Source of the DNA: Rhodospirillales bacterium URHD0017 | Lineage (GTDB): Bacteria > Pseudomonadota > Alphaproteobacteria > Reyranellales > Reyranellaceae | Assembly (NCBI GenBank): GCA_900110395.1 | Contig: FODP01000003.1 | Coordinates: 1-64,000, forward strand | Length of the DNA stretch: 64,000 bases | Direction: 5' to 3' | Shown here: in pieces, positions 39,036 through 44,795 of the stretch | Position numbering within the stretch: the stretch's first letter is position 1 | Layout of the letters: the number at the start of each line of letters is the position of its first letter | The notes under the pieces: model-generated | What the model was told of the DNA's origin: nothing | What the model saw: only the letters and a program-made list of their open reading frames with translations | Databases searched by the model: none | Program-made: the position numbers and the translations under genes

Positions 39036-39413
39036 ATGATTCGCAGACGCTCCGACCAGGGCTGGCGCGCGGCGGCATTGGCCGCGGCGCTGTTTGCGAT
39101 CACCCTCAATTTCCTGCAGCCGCTGGCCCATGCCGCGCTGATGCGGGGTGGCGCGTCACCCGCTACCTGGTCGGCAATGTGCCTGCCCAGCGCCCCCCAA
39201 GGCGACAACCAGCACCCGGCATCCGCGGCAACGATGCACGAATGCTGCCTGGGCCTCGCCCATGCAACGACGCTCGCCCAGCCGTCGACAGCGTTCGTCG
39301 CCATCGTGCGCCTGCCGGCAAGCGTCCGGCCCCTCGAGACGCCTGAGACCCTCACGCCCGTCGGCATTCGCGACGGACCCAGCCAACCGCGAGCGCCCCC
39401 CCTCCCCGTCTGA
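39036..39413 (+). CDS. DUF2946-like exported Cys/His protein
   Basis: A 125-residue protein with a signal-like N-terminus (AAALAAALFAITLNFLQPLAHA). The Cys/His centre contains CLPSAPQGDNQH and MHECCLGLAHA. The pattern resembles DUF2946 proteins, which commonly precede TonB-dependent copper receptors. The clustered Cys, His and Met residues could bind copper in the periplasm. It is the first gene of the operon and ends 62 bp before the receptor start. Family assignment is tentative because overall conservation in DUF2946 is low. Confidence 0.7.
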   Translation: MIRRRSDQGWRAAALAAALFAITLNFLQPLAHAALMRGGASPATWSAMCLPSAPQGDNQHPASAATMHECCLGLAHATTLAQPSTAFVAIVRLPASVRPLETPETLTPVGIRDGPSQPRAPPLPV

Positions 39414-39475
39414 CGCCTGAAACCGCGACGCGCGTAACCGTGCGTCGCGTTCGTTCGTTAGTCGGGAGTTTGTTC

Positions 39476-41638
39476 ATGTTTTCCGTTCGCGCGGCGACGT
39501 TCGCCGCATTCGCGGGCTTCGCGTTGATCCCATCGTTGGCCAAGGCGCAGGACACGCCGCCGCCGGCAACGCCGCCCGTCAGCCTGCCACCCATCACCGT
39601 CAGCGCCGGCCGCGGCTCGGCGCTCGACAAGCTCGACGTCAGCACCACGCTGATGAACCGCGAGCAGATCCAGGCGCTGCCCGAGACCGGCGTCGACCAG
39701 ATCGTCAACCGCATCCCGGGCGTTTGGCTGCCCAACATCCCGACCGGCCAGCTCCATCCGACGGCGCAGCCGGTCAACATCCGCGGCTTCGGCACCAGCA
39801 CCACCATCAACACGCTGGTGATGGTCGACGGCGTGCCGATCAACGATCCCTACTTCCGCACCATCAACTGGAGTGCCATTCCGAAGAACTCGGTCGATCG
39901 GATCGAAGTGATCCGCGGCGGCGGCGCCACCAGCCTGTGGGGCAACATGGCGATGGGCGGCGTCATCAACATCGTCACCCGCGAACCCAGCAAGACCGGG
40001 GCCTCGGCCGACGTGAGCTACGGCAGCTACAACACGGCCAACGCCGAGGTGACAGGCAGCGCGATCGTCAACGACAACGTCAAGATCGGCATGAGCTACA
40101 ACCACGGCCAGAGCTCGGGCTACAACCTCACGCCCGCGCAGTACCAGAACGTCAATCTGGTGCCGACCGCGTCGAAGGCCGACAACGTCGCCGCCAGCGT
40201 CTTCCTGACGCCCTCCGACAAGCTGAAAGTCTTCGCCAAGGCCTATCTCAACCAGACCTACGAGGACGGCCTGGTCTGGACCTTCGCCCACAACAACTGG
40301 TCGACGTACCGCCTGCTGCTGGGCGGCAGCTACCAGATCGACGAGAAGTCCTCGGTCAACGCCAGCGCCTGGGCCGCCGGTGGCTCGTTCGGCACCATCA
40401 ACGTGGCGAGCGGCTCCTATACGTTGAACAACATCAGCGCGACCAATCAGTTCGTCAGCCAGATCGAGGCCTCGCCCAGCGCCGACCAGGGCGGCTCGAT
40501 CTTCTACGAGGCCAGCTTCGGCCCCCTGCGCGACGTCAAGATCGGCGTCGACGGGCGGCGCACGCTGATCACCGATTACAACAGCCTCTATGCCAGCGCG
40601 ATCGCGAACCCCACGACGTTCGTCACCAACGGCGAACACCGGTTCCAGGGCGTGTTCGGACAGGGCACCTGGCGCTTCACCGGCGTGCCGGTCGACGTCA
40701 CCGTCGGCGTGCGCGGCGACTTCTGGCAGGCGCTGAATGCCAGCGTGCTCACCCAGAATTCCAGCACGCTGAACGTCGTGCCCAACACCAGCGCCGCGAG
40801 CTTCGATCCGCGCGTCGGCCTGAAATTCTACGCCAGCGACGAGGTGACGCTGCGCGGCGCGATCTACCGCAACTTCTCCGCGCCGGGCATGAACCAGATG
40901 TACAGGAGCTTCGCCAGCGGCACGTCGCTCACGGCGACGAATCCCAACCTGCAGCCGATGACCAATTTCGGCCAGGAGGTCGGTCTGGACTTCGAGTGGA
41001 AGGGCTTCACCCTCTCGGGCACCTACTTCAACAACAACCTGAACAACTTCATCGACTTCGTGACGGTGTGCAACACCAACCCGCTCTGCGCGGCGCCCTT
41101 CATCGCGGCGGCGGGGCTCAGCCCCGCCTTCACGACGATCCGCCAATACCAGAACGTCGGTAACGCCACCTTCCAGGGCTTTGAGCTGATCGCGACCTGG
41201 CAGCCCTTCGAGCAGCTCAAGCTGATCGGTAGCTTCACCAATACCGTGGCCTATCTCACCAGCTCGACCAATCCGGCGCTGGTACGCACCGGTGTGCAGC
41301 TCGGCCAGGTGCCGAACTACATGTTCACGGCCGGCGTCGAATGGCGCCCGATCGAGAACCTGGTCCTCACGGCTTCGATGAAGTCCTTCCCGCAGTACTG
41401 GAACGACACCGGTCACACGCAGTTGAACGATGGCGCGACCCTGATCGACCTCGGATTGCGCTGGTCGCCGGCGAAGGACGTCGACGTCTATGGCAGTATC
41501 CAGAACCTGACGAACGTAAACTACCTGGCATCGGGCTATACGCTGACGTCGTTCGAAGGGTCGACCGTGAGCGCCACGTCCATCCCGCAGCTCGGGATGC
41601 CGCTGACCGCCGTCGCCGGATTGAGAGTGAGGTTTTAA
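39476..41638 (+). CDS. TonB-dependent receptor (likely copper)
   Basis: A 720-residue outer-membrane receptor. It has a Sec signal (MFSVRAATFAAFAGFALIPS), a probable TonB box (PPITVSAG), a plug domain with IPGVWLPN, VNIRGFGTSTT, LVMVDGVPIND and RIEVIRGGGATSLWGNMAMG, and then a 22-strand-type barrel ending in Phe (VAGLRVRF). The ATG at 39476 has GGGAG seven bases upstream. It actively imports a metal complex across the outer membrane. Copper is inferred from the downstream PCu(A)C and thioredoxin genes. Its stop overlaps the next ATG by one base (TAATG). Confidence 0.92.
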   Translation: MFSVRAATFAAFAGFALIPSLAKAQDTPPPATPPVSLPPITVSAGRGSALDKLDVSTTLMNREQIQALPETGVDQIVNRIPGVWLPNIPTGQLHPTAQPVNIRGFGTSTTINTLVMVDGVPINDPYFRTINWSAIPKNSVDRIEVIRGGGATSLWGNMAMGGVINIVTREPSKTGASADVSYGSYNTANAEVTGSAIVNDNVKIGMSYNHGQSSGYNLTPAQYQNVNLVPTASKADNVAASVFLTPSDKLKVFAKAYLNQTYEDGLVWTFAHNNWSTYRLLLGGSYQIDEKSSVNASAWAAGGSFGTINVASGSYTLNNISATNQFVSQIEASPSADQGGSIFYEASFGPLRDVKIGVDGRRTLITDYNSLYASAIANPTTFVTNGEHRFQGVFGQGTWRFTGVPVDVTVGVRGDFWQALNASVLTQNSSTLNVVPNTSAASFDPRVGLKFYASDEVTLRGAIYRNFSAPGMNQMYRSFASGTSLTATNPNLQPMTNFGQEVGLDFEWKGFTLSGTYFNNNLNNFIDFVTVCNTNPLCAAPFIAAAGLSPAFTTIRQYQNVGNATFQGFELIATWQPFEQLKLIGSFTNTVAYLTSSTNPALVRTGVQLGQVPNYMFTAGVEWRPIENLVLTASMKSFPQYWNDTGHTQLNDGATLIDLGLRWSPAKDVDVYGSIQNLTNVNYLASGYTLTSFEGSTVSATSIPQLGMPLTAVAGLRVRF

Positions 41639-42819
41639 TGCGTCCGCTACTTGCGCTTGTCGCGCTCGTCCTGTCCGGGTCCACCGCCGTGGCTCAGCAT
41701 CAGCACGGCAAGCCGGGCAGCACCCCGGAAGCGTTCACCGCCACGCCGGCCTTCGCGCCGGACGGCACGCTCTGGGTCGCGCGGCCCAACGTCGACCGCA
41801 TCGTCGTGCAGCGCTCGACCGATCTCGGCAAGACTTTTGGCGCACCGGTCACGGTAACGCCCGAGCCCCTGAACCTCGACTGGGGACCCGATGCGCGGGC
41901 GCGCATCGTCGTCGATCCCAAAGGCCAGCTTGTCGTCACCTTCGGCACGTTCCAGGACAAGAACTTCAACGGCCGCGCCTTCTTCGCTCGCTCGAGCGAC
42001 GGCGGAGTCTCGTTCACCAAACCGCGGCCCATCACATCGGACACGACCAGCCAGCGCTTCGAGGTCGCGGGCATCGACCCCGACGGCCGCGTCTTTGCGG
42101 CCTGGCTCGACAAGCGCAACGTCGCCAAGGCACGCGCCGCCGGCAAAGCCTATCCTGGAGCGGCGCTGGCCTATGCCTGGGAGAACGGCGATGCGGATTT
42201 CGGCAATACCGCCATCGCCCTCGACAACACCTGCGAATGCTGCCGGCTCGGCCTCGCTTTCGCCGGCGCCGGCCGGCCGGCCGTGGTGTTCCGCAACATC
42301 TTCCCGGGCTCGGTGCGCGATCATGGCGTGATCAGCTTCCGCGATCCCGCGACGCCGGGACCGGTGCGCCGCGTCAGCGTCGACGACTGGAAGATCGAGG
42401 CCTGTCCGCACCACGGACCCAGCCTGGCGATCGCCGCCGACGGCTCGTACCACGTCGCCTGGTTCACCGACGGCGCCGCGCGCAAGGGCCTGTTCTACGC
42501 GCGCGCCGATTCGGGCGACACGCCCTACTCGCAGCCGCGGCCGTTGTCGGCGGCCAACCGCCAGCCGTCGCGGCCGTATCTTTTGACCAACGGCCCGGCG
42601 CTGCATCTCGTGTGGAAGGAGTTCGACGGCGACAAGGTGGCAGTGCGCTGGCAGGTCAGCCACGACAGCGGCCGTCAATGGAGCCCGCCGCGCACCGTGG
42701 CCGAGACGGCGGACGCCTCCGACCATCCCCTGCTCGTCGGCGACAAGCAGCGCGCCTACCTGTCGTGGCTCACCAAGAACGAGGACTATCGCCTGATCCC
42801 GCTGGGAGACCAGCCATGA
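41638..42819 (+). CDS. Exported Asp-box (BNR) beta-propeller, putative copper-binding
   Basis: A 393-residue exported protein (signal MRPLLALVALVLSGSTAVAQ). At least three Asp-box repeats are seen: RSTDLGKTF (about 59-67), RSSDGGVSF (about 118-126) and SHDSGRQW near the end, indicating a sialidase-like propeller. Unusual for such a fold are an N-terminal HQHG, a TCECC cluster (about 198-202) and CPHHGP (about 256-261). Placed between a TonB receptor and copper-delivery genes, it may be a periplasmic metal-binding scaffold rather than a glycosidase. It is coupled to both neighbours by overlapping start/stop codons. Confidence 0.85.
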   Translation: MRPLLALVALVLSGSTAVAQHQHGKPGSTPEAFTATPAFAPDGTLWVARPNVDRIVVQRSTDLGKTFGAPVTVTPEPLNLDWGPDARARIVVDPKGQLVVTFGTFQDKNFNGRAFFARSSDGGVSFTKPRPITSDTTSQRFEVAGIDPDGRVFAAWLDKRNVAKARAAGKAYPGAALAYAWENGDADFGNTAIALDNTCECCRLGLAFAGAGRPAVVFRNIFPGSVRDHGVISFRDPATPGPVRRVSVDDWKIEACPHHGPSLAIAADGSYHVAWFTDGAARKGLFYARADSGDTPYSQPRPLSAANRQPSRPYLLTNGPALHLVWKEFDGDKVAVRWQVSHDSGRQWSPPRTVAETADASDHPLLVGDKQRAYLSWLTKNEDYRLIPLGDQP

Positions 42820-43301
42820 GACTGCCTGTCTTCCTCGCCCTGCTGCTCGGCCTCGCCTCGTTCGGAGCGACCAACGCCGATCCTCTGCCTTTCGAACGCG
42901 GAAGCTGGGCCAAGCTCAGCGCCAGCCATGCCGGCCAGCCGACCGTGATCCACTTCTGGGGGCTGACCTGCGCGCCCTGCCTGGTCGAGATGCCGCACTG
43001 GGCAGCGCTCAAGAAGGCTCGCCCCGACATGCGCCTGGTGCTGATCGCCGCCGATCCGGTGCCCCAGGACCCCGAGCGCCTCGACGCAGCCCTGAAGCGT
43101 TTCGGCCTCGAGGCAGCCGAAAGCTGGTCCTTTACCGACCGTTTCTACGAGCGCCTGCGCTACGAGATCGATCCGGCCTGGGCCGGCGAACTGCCGCGCA
43201 CCGTCATGATCGACCGCAGCGGCAAGGCCACCGTGCTGCCCGGCGTCGCCGACCTCGCCCAGGTCCGCCAGTGGCTCGACGTCCAGTCCAAGTCTCATTG
43301 A
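42816..43301 (+). CDS. TlpA/thioredoxin-like periplasmic protein
   Basis: A 161-residue exported thioredoxin-fold protein. It has a signal peptide (MRLPVFLALLLGLASFGATNA), then VIHFWGLTCAPCLVEMPHW with the CxxC at residues 52-55, a middle insertion, and the cis-Pro region GELPRTVMIDRSGK. Its start overlaps the propeller gene stop (ATGA). The fold and operon suggest it keeps copper-site cysteines reduced or acts like TlpA/Sco proteins in loading cytochrome oxidase. Confidence 0.9.
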   Translation: MRLPVFLALLLGLASFGATNADPLPFERGSWAKLSASHAGQPTVIHFWGLTCAPCLVEMPHWAALKKARPDMRLVLIAADPVPQDPERLDAALKRFGLEAAESWSFTDRFYERLRYEIDPAWAGELPRTVMIDRSGKATVLPGVADLAQVRQWLDVQSKSH

Positions 43302-43311
43302 GGAGCACGTC

Positions 43312-43782
43312 ATGTTCATCCGAATCCTTTGCCTGATCGCCGCAACGCTGCTCGCGTCGCCGGCGTGGGCGCAGGACTACAAGCTCGGCTCGCTGGAAAT
43401 CAGCCAGCCGTGGACGCGCGCCACCCCGCCCACCGCCAAGACGGGCGGCGGCTTCGTCACCATCACCAACAAGGGCGCGACACCCGACCGCCTCATCGCG
43501 GTCCGCAGCACCGCATCCGACAAGGCCGAGATCCACGAGATGAAGATGGACGGCAACGTCATGCGCATGCGCGAGCTCGACAAGGGCCTGGAGATCCCGC
43601 CGGGCGCAACCGTCGAGCTGAAGCCCGGCGGTCTTCACATCATGTTCATGGAGCTGAAGGCGCCGTTCGCCAAGGACGCCAAGGTCCCGGTGACCCTGGT
43701 GTTCGAGAAGGCCGGCAGCATCGATGTCGAGCTTGCCGTGCAGGCCATGGGCGCGGCCACGCCCGGTCAGCCCAGGCACTGA
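43312..43782 (+). CDS. Periplasmic copper chaperone PCu(A)C
   Basis: A 156-residue exported protein (signal cleaved near SPAWA-QDY). The copper site is the Met/His motif EIHEMKMDGNVMRMRELD and, 23 residues further, GGLHIMFM, matching the PCu(A)C pattern of H-x10-M-x~21-H-x-M (the second spacing is about 22 here). It binds Cu(I) in the periplasm and delivers it to the CuA or CuB site of cytochrome c oxidase. It ends the copper operon, ten bases after the thioredoxin-like gene. Confidence 0.95.
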   Translation: MFIRILCLIAATLLASPAWAQDYKLGSLEISQPWTRATPPTAKTGGGFVTITNKGATPDRLIAVRSTASDKAEIHEMKMDGNVMRMRELDKGLEIPPGATVELKPGGLHIMFMELKAPFAKDAKVPVTLVFEKAGSIDVELAVQAMGAATPGQPRH

Positions 43783-44492: not shown

Positions 44493-44795
44493 CTAGCGCA
44501 GGCTCAAGATGTAGGCGACAAGCGCGTTGCGCTCCTGGGAGCTGAGCAAGAAGTCGGGCATGAGCGTGTGCTCTACGGCGAGGTAGCGGTCGAGCGAGGC
44601 CGCCGTCGTGCTCGGCCGGGCGGCGATTGCCCGGAAGCTCGGCGCGTTGTCGGTGGCCGTGCTCTGGTTGGGTTCGACGACGTGGCACGCCATGCACCAG
44701 CGGACGGCGAGCCTGCCGCCGACCGAGCGATCCTGCGCGGCCGCCGGAAACGCCAGCAGCGCCAAGGCCAATAACATCGCCAGTGTTATTCGCAT
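44493..44795 (-). CDS. Small exported class I cytochrome c
   Basis: A 100-residue monohaem cytochrome c. The signal peptide is MRITLAMLLALALLAFPAAA. The haem motif WCMACHVV places Cys at 34 and 37 and His at 38. The distal Met ligand lies in HTLMPDFLLS (about 79). The helical C-terminus ERNALVAYILSLR is typical of small cytochromes c. It would carry electrons in the periplasm. No partner oxidoreductase lies adjacent. It is on the opposite strand from the TerB fragment. Confidence 0.92.
   Translation of the reverse strand: MRITLAMLLALALLAFPAAAQDRSVGGRLAVRWCMACHVVEPNQSTATDNAPSFRAIAARPSTTAASLDRYLAVEHTLMPDFLLSSQERNALVAYILSLR

Follow-up and report, generated by a model that had tools for sequence, protein, structure and literature searches.

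Bradyrhizobium japonicum reportedly carries a copper-starvation operon, pcuABCDE, which codes for a receptor, a PCu(A)C chaperone (PcuC), a YcnI protein (PcuD) and a YcnJ protein (PcuE); to our knowledge, neither a β-propeller nor a thioredoxin is part of it. In SecM-secA, the codons of a ribosome arrest site overlap the partner of the downstream Shine-Dalgarno (SD) site. The pcuABCDE operon, also touched on in two further papers (PMC8424229 and PMC12617631, in excerpt), is headed by a homologue of cruR (PMC9426467, in excerpt). CruR is a copper-relieved arrest peptide that heads copper operons. In Bordetella pertussis, its stalling on a RAPP motif keeps the operon on, and copper at a CXXC motif releases the stall, after which Rho terminates (PMC9426467, in excerpt). 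The RAPP arrest of CruR was later demonstrated in vitro (PMC12992588, in excerpt). In Rhodobacter capsulatus, a stem-loop between cutF and cutO hides an SD site (PMC9973294, in excerpt). Here, we analysed the window, a stretch of 64,000 nucleotides from Rhodospirillales bacterium URHD0017, and describe a five-gene operon that codes for a leader peptide, a TonB-dependent receptor, a β-propeller, a thioredoxin and a PCu(A)C protein.

The five open reading frames (ORFs) were confirmed on the + strand at 39036-43782, and the initial annotation was right that they are tightly linked in this order. The stop of the receptor gene and the start of the propeller gene have one base in common, the propeller and thioredoxin genes overlap in ATGA, and 10 nt separate the thioredoxin gene from that of PCu(A)C. 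As far as sequence comparison can tell, the operon very probably imports scarce copper under a leader peptide that senses copper. The type of operon and the leader are of known kinds. As in cruR-bfrG(crtA)-bp2921(crpH) of B. pertussis, a DUF2946 leader with a C-terminal RAPP comes first and is followed by a TonB-dependent receptor (PMC9426467, PMC12914433, PMC13038864, in excerpt), and PCu(A)C occurs in some cruR-type operons, as it does here. However, the leader has HxCC here and CXXC there, and a propeller and a thioredoxin are found here whereas the B. pertussis operon has a PepSY_TM protein. The receptor of the window may differ in type from CrtA. The gene content, gene order, conservation, invariant cysteines and RNA covariation make it, on balance, probable that this is a copper-starvation import operon with a thiol-based relay from propeller and thioredoxin to PCu(A)C.

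The conservation of the locus, which the initial annotation had named as a check, was borne out by the survey. The named close relatives of the source genome (8.18 Mb, 62 contigs) are Reyranella. A scan of named genomes gave 32 loci, 28 of them of Reyranella type (L015-L041 and L043). The five genes are found in the same order in 21 of these 28, and because it recurs in this way the set is not a product of chance; a contig end truncates six of the other seven loci, and L041 is without an adjacent PCu(A)C gene. The propeller was matched in 16/24 congeners (in G019 by a fragment only) and in 0/16 genomes outside the genus. There were 19 propeller matches among 398 evenly sampled Pseudomonadota genomes, and 15 of these matches cover the whole protein; the four short matches were not counted, and the three of them that were fetched have no thioredoxin by profile. 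A thioredoxin gene lies directly downstream of the propeller gene in all 15 full-length loci, by a profile built from loci that include the tested ones, although the window protein alone already matched in most. A TonB receptor gene lies directly upstream in 14. In the fifteenth locus, L071, a DUF2946 leader is followed by ExbB, ExbD, an ORF that has no Pfam match and occupies the TonB position, and then the propeller and the thioredoxin. PCu(A)C is downstream in 10/15, and L068 also carries DUF1775 (YcnI) and CopC-CopD, the same set as pcuABCDE of B. japonicum. A candidate arrest leader is present in 11/15 (the window, L065-L072, L076 and L081) with support that varies, namely Pfam DUF2946 in three, our own profile in four, and otherwise a small RAPP-ending ORF or, for L072, resemblance to L070; L073 has a twelfth, weaker candidate.

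A class sample gave matches in 13/385 genomes, of which five strong and one medium were taken as homologues and seven weak short ones were set aside. Three additional homologues from it served as an after-the-fact check, with a thioredoxin in 2/3 and a receptor in 3/3. L093, which belongs to the same genus, carries the complete set of five. In L094, a RAPP leader comes with a receptor, a propeller and a thioredoxin, and the PCu(A)C gene is upstream behind a RAPP leader of its own; the two small RAPP-ending ORFs of this locus, one ahead of PCu(A)C and one ahead of the receptor, are at L094:1364-2377. Outside the samples, L042 combines receptor, propeller and thioredoxin genes with PCu(A)C and with a frame that, read by eye, is Sco-like. 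In two Methylobacter loci, only the propeller and the thioredoxin of the set are present. An apparent fusion of propeller and thioredoxin in L077 was discarded, as the seemingly single ORF consists of two genes in different frames. With CruR-type leaders, the receptor-propeller-thioredoxin order and PCu(A)C, Sco, YcnI, CopC/CopD and ExbB/ExbD neighbours, the proposal of a copper uptake locus is well supported by comparison.

The start of the receptor gene was revised from GTG 39440 to ATG 39476, which leaves a gap of 62 nt after gene 1. This ATG is most likely the true start, judging from the related loci, because an in-frame ATG is found 59-66 nt past the leader stop in 27/28 of them; L040 has TTG at 63 nt instead, and the GTG position is found in the window only. 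In a PDB sequence search, the receptor matched siderophore receptors and colicin receptors, a result that does not settle CrtA membership. The receptors of Reyranella are 64-79% identical to that of the window (five aligned) and those of other lineages 16-29%, while the propellers are 33-55% identical. Since the propellers are conserved and the receptors divergent, propeller and thioredoxin seem to be joined to different receptors, which would place them at a common periplasmic step after import. The pair looks like a portable periplasmic module, one whose reduced thiols most likely carry copper from the imported chelate to PCu(A)C.

The differing receptors would also suit a system that is not specific to copper, in which propeller and thioredoxin would serve imported metal chelates in general, as their reductase or release system, and be the soluble equivalent of PepSY_TM reductases like CrpH. 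More than 75% of crtA loci have a PepSY_TM gene after crtA (PMC12914433), and CrpH is a member of a reductase superfamily (PMC13038864, in excerpt). The propeller loci fetched from 15 genomes gave no PepSY_TM match, although the family occurs elsewhere in 12/15 of these genomes; the pair may therefore fill that role. We nevertheless consider a general chelate system improbable, given that the neighbours are consistently copper genes and that the leader is of the CruR type.

The propeller has three Asp-boxes. Its AlphaFold2 model is a confidently predicted propeller with a mean pLDDT of 84.1 and a pTM of 0.85, residues 4-31 being disordered. The best structural matches were PLL-type lectins of Photorhabdus (Z 30.3, 308 residues, 2.9 Å) and CylK (Z 29.9, 347 residues, 3.4 Å); sialidases rank lower in the Foldseek list. 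A single-sequence search of the PDB gave one chance match only, and a profile search only Asp-box matches to sialidases. The Asp-boxes and a fold common to this protein and the sialidases could indicate a sialidase or another glycosidase or lyase with copper genes as accidental neighbours. This is very improbable indeed: there is no RIP motif (R-[IVL]-P), the BNR and BNR_2 matches are below cut-off, Pfam and NCBIfam gave no sialidase match above cut-off, and the copper-type neighbourhood is conserved. The sialidase reading was accordingly rejected on the grounds of motif, profile and gene context.

Nine residues are invariant in 17/17 divergent rows, namely Cys199, Cys201, Cys202, Cys256, Arg203, Arg227, Trp251, Pro257 and His272, and His229 is conserved in 15/17. 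The CxCC codons are at 42232-42243 and that of Cys256 at 42403-42405. The initial annotation had singled out HQHG, TCECC and CPHHGP. All three are present, but only the four cysteines are invariant: His258 and His259 of CPHHGP vary (HH, HQ, DH, EH), and HQHG is one form of a variable His-bearing N-terminal tail. HQHG with CPHHGP was therefore dropped as a copper site, the histidines not being conserved. In 17/17 rows, the core is preceded by a tail that has two or more His, the counted stretch including signal-peptide residues in some. Many propellers from outside Reyranella (L065-L072, L075) have an additional C-x(6)-C pair between the tail and the first blade. By predicted secondary structure, CxCC comes right after strand 192-198, Cys256 is in a loop ahead of strand 262-265, and Arg227-His229 falls within the first residues of strand 226-236; with the strands in the order that is usual in propellers, CxCC, Cys256 and Arg227-His229 would share one face near the channel.

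Distant plasmid-borne proteins of the 'sialidase family' (22 records, 24-27% identity) were also matched. The four that were examined all have CxCC and CPxxG, and all four lie near copper or metal genes, which are CopC; DUF411 with a cation efflux gene; a copper oxidase with copper-binding proteins; and a multicopper oxidase. Context and these distant CxCC propellers argue well for the earlier view that the propeller is a periplasmic copper component and not a sialidase. What changes is the idea that it acts alone as a copper scaffold, as the unit appears to be propeller plus thioredoxin.

The thioredoxin has no Pfam match above cut-off, and its NCBIfam TlpA match (1e-6) is likewise under the cut-off of that family; both cysteines of its Cys pair are invariant in a 43-row alignment. 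AhpC_TSA genes are noted in the CruR papers as members of operons of this kind, and they may be the thioredoxin that partners the propeller. In PCu(A)C, the ligand pattern H-X10-M-X21-H-X-M is absent in its exact form; the spacing counted by eye is X10, X22, X1, which we take to be that of the PcuC ligands. The genome has a second PCu(A)C gene (G000:C29:417635-417967; 108 bits) with 41% identity to the copy in the operon. We found no published description of the propeller-thioredoxin pair in the open literature text, supplements and subscription papers lying outside the search, and the words propeller, sialidase and BNR are absent from the main text of four key papers.

Several of these observations weigh against the relay. 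PCu(A)C does not adjoin the propeller gene in 5/15 loci, and no thioredoxin was detected in L095, the most distant locus of the class sample, where a receptor is upstream. No annotated thioredoxin directly adjoins any of the four distant plasmid propellers, which keep the cysteines, and the four Cys could be two structural disulfides. Copper as the common cargo rests on context, because the receptors outside the genus are so divergent. The same copper-import operon could then work with a propeller that binds or docks, to the imported ligand or to a receptor partner, and with a thioredoxin that, like TlpA, acts on targets of PCu(A)C such as CuA. This would agree with the distant propellers, with sugar-binding propeller lectins as the closest solved folds and with the resemblance of the thioredoxin to TlpA. 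We judge it rather unlikely, since the thioredoxin gene is directly beside the propeller gene in 15/15 plus 2/3 loci, also where PCu(A)C is absent, so that the partner of the thioredoxin looks to be the propeller.

Judged by its sequence, gene 1 is a DUF2946 leader peptide of the CruR type, a published class of arrest peptides that respond to copper. The DUF2946 family of the initial annotation thus holds (Table 1), and the role is amended to that of a regulatory leader ending in RAPP. HxCC is at residues 68-71 and RAPP at residues 119-122, three residues before the end. HxCC with R[AG]PP is found in 28/28 Reyranella-type leaders, with RAPP in 16, the window among them, and RGPP in 12. The last Cys and RAPP are 47 or 48 residues apart in 27/28 (the CruR criterion is 45, within one or two), and L019 has an additional late Cys. 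A CXXC-like motif was seen only in leaders of other lineages, such as CPYC in L070; as HxCC stands in place of CXXC, we name gene 1 CruR-like. The leaders at L070:2830-3201 and L072:8610-8981, from two near-identical small-genome lineages, are DUF2946 proteins that end in AAPP and not RAPP. With a CruR-type leader as gene 1, the operon would be tied to copper starvation. The residues after RAPP differ freely between loci (LPV, SHV, FLA and others), which is expected if the RNA is what selection keeps.

In the window, the codons after RAPP (39402-39408) are predicted to pair with the SD region of the receptor (39463-39469), and 39425-39432 with 39441-39448 in an apical hairpin. A stem of 22 pairs in four helices is common to 27 sequences between RAPP and the receptor start. 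One helix joins the post-RAPP codons to the SD region and another the stop-codon region to a GUC; the other two are a short helix and the strong apical hairpin. In this stem, 93.9% of the alignment cells pair. The alignment excludes L082, a duplicate, and L034, for which no leader frame was recovered; L029 and L033 are without a leader. Changes on both sides that preserve pairing occur in 11/22 pairs, against 3.7 in shuffles, 0/500 of which reach 11, and 3-5 in slid controls; because the shuffles ignore relatedness, this covariation is support and not proof. Each locus's own anti-SD and SD sequences pair with -16.2 kcal/mol compared with -14.1 when swapped (0/10,000 permutations as good), in a test that kept L030 with its start codon taken one ATG too early. 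The covariance model matches the window as well as L034, which was outside the alignment. It has no second copy in its own genome and no confident match in the loci of other lineages; across lineages, the stem therefore does not form a single conserved sequence family. In nine loci of several lineages, the SD region is predicted to be less paired once the stalled footprint is masked, an outcome that masking favours because it takes away partners. Out of 2000 shuffled left arms, 429 (window), 115, 124, 2, 3, 69, 25, 202 and 37 were equally good.

The covarying stem that hides the SD site suggests a SecM-like mode of control and not the Rho termination reported for CruR, with copper as the signal here and secretion in SecM-secA. 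The cutFOG operon of R. capsulatus similarly has a proline-rich leader and a stem-loop that hides the SD site of the next gene (PMC9973294, PMC8456105, in excerpt). There, copper turns the multicopper oxidase on; the sign would be opposite here, as starvation control of import is expected. Some points speak against such a switch in the window. The pairing of its own arms is not stronger than that of shuffles (429/2000), it is among the 3/25 rows whose own pair does not beat the mean swapped pair, and with the stalled footprint masked the GGG of its SD site is still paired, to an alternative partner. In the window and in L072, a stronger SD partner exists further upstream within the leader gene. 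The copper motif CXXC of CruR is absent, HxCC replacing it in 28/28 Reyranella-type leaders, and published CruR has a 162-bp gap with Rho termination (PMC9426467, in excerpt), in contrast to the 62-nt gap with the stem described here.

Table 1 Features of the operon in the window.
Feature	Position	Strand	Basis
cruR-like leader ORF	39036..39413	+	125 aa; DUF2946, PF11162 32.1 bits (cut-off 23.7)
RAPP codons, predicted ribosome arrest site	39390..39401	+	published RAPP arrest of CruR (PMC12992588, in excerpt)
Predicted RNA stem	39402..39469	+	consensus fold and covariation, 27 sequences; covariance-model match in window and L034
TonB-dependent outer-membrane receptor	39476..41638	+	720 aa; PF00593 147 bits, PF07715 74 bits
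Exported β-propeller, Asp-box protein	41638..42819	+	393 aa; AlphaFold2, fold matches, conservation
Exported TlpA/ResA-like thioredoxin	42816..43301	+	weak Redoxin/AhpC-TSA; CAPC at residues 52-55
PCu(A)C copper chaperone	43312..43782	+	PF04314 140.5 bits (cut-off 29.4)

About 700 nt downstream of the operon, a small exported c-type cytochrome (PF00034, 29 bits) is encoded on the - strand at 44493-44795. The sole Sco/SenC gene detected in the source genome (G000:C28:393408-393815) is far from the operon.

In the scheme that we infer for the copper response, copper binding, redox role, direction of transfer and ligand, a ribosome making the CruR-like leader at low copper would stall on RAPP and cover the codons that otherwise pair with the SD site of the receptor gene, and the receptor, propeller, thioredoxin and PCu(A)C would be made. 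Copper on the nascent HxCC would free the stall, whereupon the stem would close and synthesis would stop. The receptor, with TonB, would carry a copper chelate across the outer membrane. In the periplasm, the propeller would take Cu(I) on a thiolate site composed of CxCC and Cys256, with the His tail assisting, and the partner thioredoxin would keep the propeller thiols reduced and may give electrons for the reduction of Cu(II) to Cu(I). From there, copper would move to PCu(A)C and then to the heme-copper oxidases. We propose only tentatively, as a possibility, that the CxCC propeller and its dedicated thioredoxin could be a new thiol-driven periplasmic machine that is exchangeable between unrelated TonB receptors, strips copper from the chelate, reduces it and loads PCu(A)C, as a soluble counterpart of PepSY_TM reductases, in an operon switched by a copper-released ribosome stall that directly masks the anti-SD codons of the receptor.

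The release of imported copper from its carrier and its handover to periplasmic chaperones is an open step in the field. With a conserved propeller and thioredoxin acting between receptor and PCu(A)C, this step would gain two named, testable proteins, in soil and freshwater bacteria that are harmless. Furthermore, the leader and the covarying stem would wire CruR-type sensing to direct translational control, which would be a third wiring beside Rho termination and CutF.

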